Source of the DNA: Moraxellaceae bacterium | Lineage (GTDB): Bacteria > Pseudomonadota > Gammaproteobacteria > Pseudomonadales > Moraxellaceae | Direction: 5' to 3' | Assembly: GCA_030684415.1 (NCBI GenBank) | Contig: JAUXNL010000457.1 | Coordinates: 1 to 35,578 of the forward strand | Length of the DNA: 35,578 bases | Shown: positions 31,288 through 32,874 of the stretch, in pieces | Position numbering within the stretch: the first letter of the stretch is position 1 | Layout of the letters: each line of letters begins with the position of its first letter | Position numbers and translations under genes: made by a program | Notes under the pieces: model-generated | What the model was told of the DNA's origin: nothing | The model's database searches: none | What the model saw: only the letters and a program-made list of their open reading frames with translations

Positions 31288-32874
31288 TTAATTCCCATTG
31301 AATATGGGGCCAAGCAAGCTTTGTAATTGCCCAATATTAGAAGCGTACTTAAGCTTGCAGTACTCACTGTATATGGTTCGGCGCACATGAATCTCGTCAA
31401 TGCCAGTGGAGCTAACAATTTTGTTAACGATATTGCTCATTCTATCTTTTGCGCGGTCACGCATATTGGCCTTGGTGAGTTGCAGATAGTCTTGTTCTGA
31501 CGTAAGGCTAGTAATATTTATACTGTGACCTTCAAACATGCTGTTTAATTGATCAAGAAGTTGAGCGTTATTTGCGGCATTATTCTCAAGCATTTCTATT
31601 GCGCCGACCTCAGGTGTGCATGGTAGAAACTGGACTTTATTGGCGGCTGTTGCGAATAAATTAAGTAGGACTTGGTTCTGTTGTTGTCTTGCTATTGCTA
31701 GGGACTCTGTTTTTACATCTTCATCAAGAATGGCGTATCTCTTTACGTAGCTGGCAAAAATTGCAGAAGAGTTGTTTAGCATTTCTACAACTTGCACAAA
31801 CCCACCAACGGGCGCCACTTTGTATAGTGGTCTATAATTTCTGTTCGGATGGCAGTGCGCCATATACATGGCGACTAGTTGCTCGGTCAATAGCTTTGCT
31901 TGTTTGTCTTCCACATAAAAAACAAAATCTGCCGCTAGCTCATCATCAAAAGCAATATCGCCAAGTACTTGTGCTGGAAATGCCCCAATCACTGGTGAAA
32001 TATTTCCATTGCTATTGCTGCGAAGATGAATTATCTGTTTTCTATTTGAATTTTTTATAATTGTTGCTGAGTGTGTGGAAAACAATACGGTTAAGTTTTT
32101 CGCTGCTGCAATCTGAGAAACCTGATTTAATAGTCTGACTTGTGCCTGTGGGTGCAGGGCCATTTCAACTTCATCAATTAGAAGCAAGCTGTTAGCAGAA
32201 ATGGAGTCAATTTTGATTGCAAGTTTTAATGCGCAAAGCTCGCCAAGACTGAAACTCTTTTCAGAGTAGTAGTAAGTTCTTGCACCGACTTGATATGGGA
32301 TAAGGTATGCGGCATTACCAACGCCACGTCGAGTATTGACGCGCTTAAGGGCATTCCACTTTTGATCCCCAAGAACATCGGAAAGAAAACCTTTAATTCC
32401 GGTTGGAGCATCCCTTAGTCTTCGGGGTTGGATTTCATCTGGAGAAGGTTCGATTCTATCTCCACTTGCTTCTATATATTCAATTGAAGAGTAGGGGGAT
32501 TCGCTGAAAAGATTCGAGTTTCTTCGAGGAGTTGCCCGCCAGCGTTGCCCGCCATAGTGGTATTTGACGGTTTCTGTGCCGATTTTATACTCGATTTCTG
32601 CTTCTGCGTAAGAATCAAGTCTGTTCTCGAGTGGACTTGTCTTATAGAAGCGCTGGAATGCATGTTGCGCTCTTATTCTGTATATGGATGCAAATAGACT
32701 GGTCTTGCCTGAGCCATTCAAGCCGGTAAGAACCCAAACTCCAGGTCCTGGAATTTCAAAGATAAGCTCTTCAATCTTTTTTATTTTTCTTAGTGTGATT
32801 TTCATGTGTGAGAAATCAATGGTTGGTTGTGATAAGGAGTGAAATCTAACACGGCTTAAATTTACCCAAGTCAT
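31288..32874 (-). CDS. OLD-family-like AAA ATPase with TOPRIM-type C-terminal domain (putative anti-phage nuclease)
   Basis: Walker A LTGLNGSGKTS, signature FSLGELCALKLA, Walker B LLLIDEVEMALHP, FSTHSATII, then FVFYVEDKQAKLL and RYAILDEDV resembling TOPRIM motifs. Confidence 0.82.
   Translation of the reverse strand: MTWVNLSRVRFHSLSQPTIDFSHMKITLRKIKKIEELIFEIPGPGVWVLTGLNGSGKTSLFASIYRIRAQHAFQRFYKTSPLENRLDSYAEAEIEYKIGTETVKYHYGGQRWRATPRRNSNLFSESPYSSIEYIEASGDRIEPSPDEIQPRRLRDAPTGIKGFLSDVLGDQKWNALKRVNTRRGVGNAAYLIPYQVGARTYYYSEKSFSLGELCALKLAIKIDSISANSLLLIDEVEMALHPQAQVRLLNQVSQIAAAKNLTVLFSTHSATIIKNSNRKQIIHLRSNSNGNISPVIGAFPAQVLGDIAFDDELAADFVFYVEDKQAKLLTEQLVAMYMAHCHPNRNYRPLYKVAPVGGFVQVVEMLNNSSAIFASYVKRYAILDEDVKTESLAIARQQQNQVLLNLFATAANKVQFLPCTPEVGAIEMLENNAANNAQLLDQLNSMFEGHSINITSLTSEQDYLQLTKANMRDRAKDRMSNIVNKIVSSTGIDEIHVRRTIYSEYCKLKYASNIGQLQSLLGPIFNGN

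Follow-up and report, generated by a model that had tools for sequence, protein, structure and literature searches.

The window analyzed here is a stretch of 35,578 nucleotides from a Moraxellaceae genome. It contains a 5.4-kb insertion (29108..34490) between xerC and a HAD gene, two genes that follow each other directly in six genomes of the same genus. The insertion holds a RelE/HigA-like toxin-antitoxin (TA) pair, a cassette array and an SDR gene. The TA pair (29236-29837, minus strand) lies between xerC and the third cassette and consists of a RelE/ParE-type toxin (TIGR02683, 5e-40) and an HI1420-type antidote (TIGR02684); no clear attC was found for this pair. The source genome is a MAG that is 84% complete with 5.5% contamination, and the contig with the array bears the genus's own dapF-DUF484-xerC genes. 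GC content is 0.42 in the first cassette, 0.40-0.46 in the three cassettes and 0.63-0.66 in the flanking genes.

The gene of interest encodes an ATPase-TOPRIM protein. The original prediction of a 528-aa ORF at 31288-32874 proved to be real, and its orientation, which had not been given, is the minus strand. The start codon had to be revised. The ATG at 32874, from which the 528-aa form is read (31288..32874, minus strand), is 25 nt outside the cassette, which starts at 32849, so that the first eight or so codons of this form are non-cassette DNA. Alignments of homologues with approximately 50% identity or more begin at residues 20-24 of the 528-aa ORF and none reaches further upstream. Thus, M24 at 32805 is taken as the conserved start, giving a 505-aa protein (31288..32805, minus strand), and residue numbers are counted from M24 in this manuscript. 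The ATG at 32874 has a GGGGAG a few nucleotides upstream and could serve as a local start. The non-cassette DNA at 32850-32874 (minus strand) contributes this ATG with its GGGGAG, the ATG is in frame with the cassette gene, and a 23-residue N-terminal extension is possible.

The gene lies inside a true integron cassette, which heads a run of three. This cassette, cassette 1 (31223..32849, minus strand, about 1627 bp), runs from the T after the G of G/TTAGAT to the G of CG/TTATAC, where the slash marks the boundary. On the minus strand, G/TTAGATTTCAC stands before the gene, and GTGAAATCTAAC stands after it, forming the R'' portion of an attC that ends in CAACG/TTATAC. The start of the cassette is thus complementary to the R'' of its own attC (G/TTRRRY with RYYYAAC), forming a 12-bp inverted repeat (GTTAGATTTCAC and GTGAAATCTAAC), which is the feature that marks cassette membership. 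The boundary repeats of the three consecutive cassettes are 12, 11 and 10 bp long, and they were equalled in 0, 1 and 2 of 20,000 shuffles of the flanks, respectively. The attC of the ATPase cassette (attC1, R'' to R', 58 bp, 31217..31274, minus strand) has its recombination point at 31223/31222. It starts 13 nt past the stop codon, exactly where an attC-like site had been claimed, and the boundary repeats exceed chance. attC1 is short and its folding energy is no better than that of shuffled sequences (z 0.06), so it was called by box layout and boundary repeat. A custom attC scanner was discarded since it missed the window's own attC sites, and the boundary repeats and shuffle test were used instead. 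The pattern CAACGTTRNRC had five matches in the genome, which is below the reversed control, and is uninformative on further cassettes. An attI or an additional attC was sought by eye 5' of cassette 1 and not found.

The two neighbouring cassettes are on the same strand. Cassette 2 (30770..31222, minus strand) has an 11-bp boundary repeat and carries a 121-aa ORF (30842-31207, minus strand) that is weakly similar to the stress protein YjaA (NF041448, 2.3e-17, below the cut-off). Its attC (attC2, 75 bp, 30764..30838, minus strand) forms a long hairpin (z -8.2, none of 200 shuffles as good). Cassette 3 is partial (30131..30769, minus strand, 10-bp boundary repeat). Its ORF extends to 30132 and is 237 aa long when read from a GTG at 30845, while an ATG inside the cassette lies at approximately 30767; its R'' is at 30131-30140 and the right half of its attC was not identified. 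The original prediction had allowed for partnering of the ATPase gene with the 121-aa and membrane cassettes. This is unsupported, because the neighbours are separate cassettes with boundaries of their own and neither recurs beside relatives of the gene. The 121-aa and 237-aa ORFs were rejected as partners on these grounds (0 matches in 15 related loci).

No intI, the feature of a complete integron, adjoins the array. The assembly has an integron integrase (TIGR02249, 476 bits) on another contig, C332, beside spoT-like and vapBC-like genes that were named from their translations. Positions 3871-6282 of C332 (L042) comprise the integrase and one 110-aa ORF between cassette-like ends, after which the contig ends. 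Nine genomes of the genus were compared, and five have a full integrase. Since intI is not adjacent and is on a separate contig, the array is a CALIN-like group of stored cassettes. Integration of cassettes at genomic sites other than attI is known (Loot et al. 2024, cited in PMC11023631), and the array was possibly placed at the xerC/HAD site by integration outside attI.

The N-terminal part of the protein (residues 1-285, 31951..32805, minus strand) is a predicted ABC/SMC-type ATPase domain. Pfam identified AAA_21 (7.8e-15) and AAA_15 (5.7e-10), and structural matches to the heads of SMC, Rad50 and PtuA were obtained at Z 15-17. Conservation was assessed in a set of 18 proteins with identity down to about 20%. 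The Walker A motif GLNGSGKT (residues 28-35, 32701..32724, minus strand; N30, G31, G33 and K34 invariant), the signature SLGE, the Walker B motif LLLIDE (ending in D211-E212, 32170..32187, minus strand; invariant) and the His of the H-loop are invariant or almost so in these relatives. The Pfam matches and conserved residues bear out the N-terminal ABC/SMC-type motifs of the original prediction. Walker B lies approximately 65 residues earlier than in TsOLD, which suggests that the inserted dimerisation domain of OLD proteins may be reduced or absent.

The C-terminal part (residues 284-505, 31291..31956, minus strand) comprises a TOPRIM-like domain and a helical tail (AF2 pLDDT 89.9; 85.8 for the model of the 505-aa protein). 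The YVED and ILDED segments are present. E299-D300 (31906..31911, minus strand) and D361-x-D363 (31717..31725, minus strand) are invariant in 18 of 18 proteins, and a GG is near-invariant. Predicted strands are at 294-298, 328-332 and 355-360, with E299-D300 behind the first strand and D361-x-D363 behind the third. When the full-length model was searched with Foldseek, TsOLD was identified first over both domains (4.4e-13), followed by GajA and retron/Septu PtuA; TM-scores were low (0.3-0.45) and rmsd values large, which probably reflects a different placement of the domains. The isolated C-terminal domain had no significant Foldseek match in the PDB (best E 0.11). In the VIA results for this domain, chain A of the PARIS complex, read as AriB, had Z 7.9 and the TsOLD TOPRIM 7.4. 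Other OLD C-termini had Z 5.8-6.7, those at 6.7 and 6.3 being in the top five, so that AriB and OLD TOPRIMs take four of the five highest places. Rank 50 had Z 4.6, and values of 5.8-7.9 are middling. The TOPRIM assignment proposed in the original prediction therefore has good support from motifs and moderate support from fold, as the strand order and the invariant E...DxD fit it. The TOPRIM acids of Eco8 are E398 and E402, the latter at position +4 (PMC12887533). This second acid is not found here. The +4 residue is Ala303, conserved as Ala in at least 90% of sequences, and an invariant Asp occupies position +1. Because the +4 acid is replaced, catalysis could differ.

Several known systems resemble this protein. 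With PADLOC, the retron type I-B effector model ATPase-Toprim_I-B (PDLC02914) was best (1.3e-32, residues 24-401) and HEC-04 was second (1.1e-20, best stretch residues 199-392), while PtuA, AriA (1.3e-15, partial), GajA (8.4e-13) and Old were weaker than HEC-04. Thus, the OLD-like label given earlier is correct in the broad sense of an ATPase joined to a TOPRIM, but by profile P2 Old, GajA and AriA are less close to it than retron I-B and HEC-04 are. Retron type I-B effectors share the collinear ATPase and TOPRIM, the E-D and DxD residues and a similar size; however, identity to a member linked to a reverse transcriptase (RT) is 24%, the window gene has neither RT nor ncRNA, and the two fall in separate groups of the tree. 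HEC-04 and IbfA are likewise single genes whose products, about 500 aa long, join an ABC ATPase to a TOPRIM, although the HEC-04 profile match is weaker and the likeness is judged by profile alone for HEC-04 and by description for IbfA. Both are reported to lower phage growth as single-gene ATPase-TOPRIM defences, and the passages of this source that were covered give no account of cassette carriage for either (PMC12111858). Class 1 OLD proteins (P2 Old, TsOLD, YbjD/OldB) are also isolated genes with an N-terminal ABC ATPase and a C-terminal TOPRIM (PMC10568477), as are the window gene and its relatives; they differ in the later Walker B of TsOLD and in the Ala at +4 of the window protein.

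PARIS (AriA/AriB) and Gabija (GajA/GajB) share the ABC ATPase and TOPRIM chemistry, and AriB leads the structural matches of the C-terminal domain taken alone, but their profile matches are weaker and the window gene has no AriB- or GajB-like neighbour. Neither a UvrD-like GajB helicase nor an AriB gene or AriAB fusion was found; the neighbours are the YjaA-like and 237-aa ORFs and the SDR gene. This agrees with the original prediction that the locus is not a standard Gabija or PARIS. No Rfam RNA was found in the island. Standard Gabija, PARIS and retron systems were rejected because their partners are missing. The stand-alone option of the original prediction is favoured, as no neighbour recurs among related loci except for genes common to two related prophages.

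The clearest evidence for mobility comes from relatives. In the integron of Marinomonas hwangdonensis (L021), the cassette that comes first after intI (4681-5682, minus strand) holds a 50%-identical relative, with a clear attC behind it. A soil proteobacterial MAG (L023) has 90.8% DNA identity to L021 over positions 5972-7574 of L021, which is the exact cassette, and nothing aligns beyond it. Because identity stops at the cassette ends, this pair shows that the family has moved between unrelated bacteria as a cassette. The mobility by attC recombination that had been proposed is thus demonstrated for the family, in this pair, and not for the window copy's own transfer. Another relative, in genome G029, has attC-like sequence on both sides. 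There was no evident cassette for relatives in Perlucidibaca (L024/L044), Cobetia (L022), G673 (L062) and G445 (L063), or for two IMG/VR prophage relatives (L028, L029) near repressor-like genes and a primase. The nearest relative (L020, 73%) is truncated by a contig end. In the tree, these eleven relatives and the window copy form one group (support 99/99) apart from the RT-linked effectors, and cassette carriage occurs in at least two places within it. The dN/dS values among three near copies (0.13-0.17) indicate purifying selection. Among 390 genomes of the order, seven had a match at E 1e-10, a count that includes the window genome and one distant match, and the distribution of the family is patchy. 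A search of viral contigs with L021 and L029 as queries gave no new relatives.

Other observations were made in these loci. The second cassette of the Marinomonas integron (L021, 7625-9832) encodes the phage-defence candidate PDC-S46 (6e-228). The cassette directly before the G029 relative encodes the defence candidate PDC-S06 (1e-225; L043, 7819-10422, minus strand), a gene that ends in an attC-like site. At L063 4608-6584, a GHKL-ATPase protein with an HSDR_N-like, restriction-like end precedes the G445 relative and is a possible defence neighbour. In addition, an Agrobacterium plasmid relative adjoins Z1/AIPR/PD-(D/E)XK genes. In a genome of the same family (G600, L064), the relative is interrupted by four internal stops and is a pseudogene. 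Distant ATPase-TOPRIM relatives (L074-L084) are common in IMG/VR phage contigs at varied cargo positions, and the window protein has a match at 4.4e-38 to phrog_3940, a family of unknown function.

Four other explanations were weighed against a stand-alone defence role. The top PADLOC model raises the idea of an orphan retron effector that shares with retron type I-B effectors a need for an RT and msDNA, which would be supplied in trans, and two distant relatives (L068, L085) do lie directly after an RT (RVT_1 confirmed in L068; L085 judged by sequence). However, no RT was matched in the 84% complete assembly and none is beside any close relative. On the retron I-B model, true retron effectors reach 501-610 bits compared with 112 for the window protein, and they separate in the tree with full support, albeit on long branches, which leaves this idea with very little probability. 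About as improbable is a selfish stabiliser whose restrained toxicity preserves the array or prophage and not the host. TA genes are common in integrons, a RelE/HigA-like pair is in this same island, and AAA_21 is named after the AbiEii toxin, but the gene stands alone, and nothing resembling an antitoxin accompanies it in its cassette or its relatives at their loci. A DNA-maintenance or regulatory ATPase-nuclease that is merely carried by mobile elements is less improbable, though still a poor candidate. Other roles do occur in the OLD family: Cran1 is reported to work in the archaeal cell cycle (PMC12796447), and deletion of ybjD left phage susceptibility unchanged (PMC13261556). The sparse occurrence in the order, carriage on cassettes, prophages and a plasmid, and the defence-candidate neighbours argue against such a role.

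The remaining explanation concerns the window copy alone and is compatible with defence. The cassette may be stored silently, its gene having no current role in this genome while the family works elsewhere, which we regard as unlikely, though it deserves more weight than the other three. There is neither intI nor Pc beside the array. A scan for promoter-like sites upstream of the gene found none, and a terminator-like hairpin with a T-run (32907-32927, minus strand), just upstream of the array, would stop transcription from the SDR gene. For these two reasons the gene may be silent at the xerC/HAD site, and its expression is uncertain. However, the reading frame and all motifs are intact, the promoter scan covered the sigma70 consensus only, and the upstream in-frame ATG with GGGGAG could permit translation.

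Phage protection by the ATPase-TOPRIM gene is likely. The explanation that we consider probable is that the gene encodes a stand-alone ATPase-TOPRIM effector of the broad OLD superfamily, carried as a one-gene integron cassette and acting as an abortive-infection-type defence nuclease. We infer the defence role, its trigger, its substrate and the abortive outcome, and several circumstances point towards defence: kinship by profile, a patchy distribution, prophage loci, the PDC-S46 and PDC-S06 neighbours, and the plasmid Z1/AIPR/PD-(D/E)XK context. In this mechanism the SMC/PtuA-like ATPase domain would dimerise or oligomerise and keep the active site of the TOPRIM switched off. Infection would then bring about a change, which may be a phage protein, DNA ends that are aberrant or a shift in nucleotides, and this would alter the state of the ATPase. 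The TOPRIM would then bind metal through E299, D300, D361 and D363 and cut nucleic acid, either DNA or host tRNA as for AriB, and this cleavage would abort infection. DNA cleavage should not be assumed, because the TOPRIM is dispensable in YbjD/OldB, a tested single-gene ATPase-TOPRIM defence protein (PMC13261556), and AriB is a tRNase (PMC12409363). A more specific proposal, which we offer tentatively as somewhat short of an even chance, is that these genes form an RT-free lineage akin to retron type I-B effectors, in which a lone defence nuclease with an altered TOPRIM site (E-D, no +4 acid) alternates between integron cassettes and prophage cargo sites.

In kind, the gene is ordinary: it belongs to a known superfamily of defence nucleases and is carried on a cassette. 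That integrons carry phage-defence genes is already established for Vibrio chromosomal and mobile integrons, as reviewed in PMC12409362 and PMC12444791, and the window gene resembles those cassettes as a defence-type gene packaged with an attC and stored in an array. No report of the ATPase-TOPRIM family among integron defence cassettes was found in the literature searched, where the original integron-defence studies were reached through reviews. What is added is the ATPase-TOPRIM family itself, its transfer at cassette breakpoints and its RT-free status. An ATPase-TOPRIM lineage joins the kinds of gene held and mobilised by integrons, and the L021/L023 pair, a Marinomonas and a soil proteobacterium, is a clean natural case of transfer with breakpoints at the cassette ends. 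Since the window gene is one gene of approximately 500 aa without a partner, it also offers a simple system for studying the control of a TOPRIM nuclease by an ABC ATPase where msDNA, GajB and AriB are all lacking. Lastly, defence-profile matches to "retron effectors" can be stand-alone genes.
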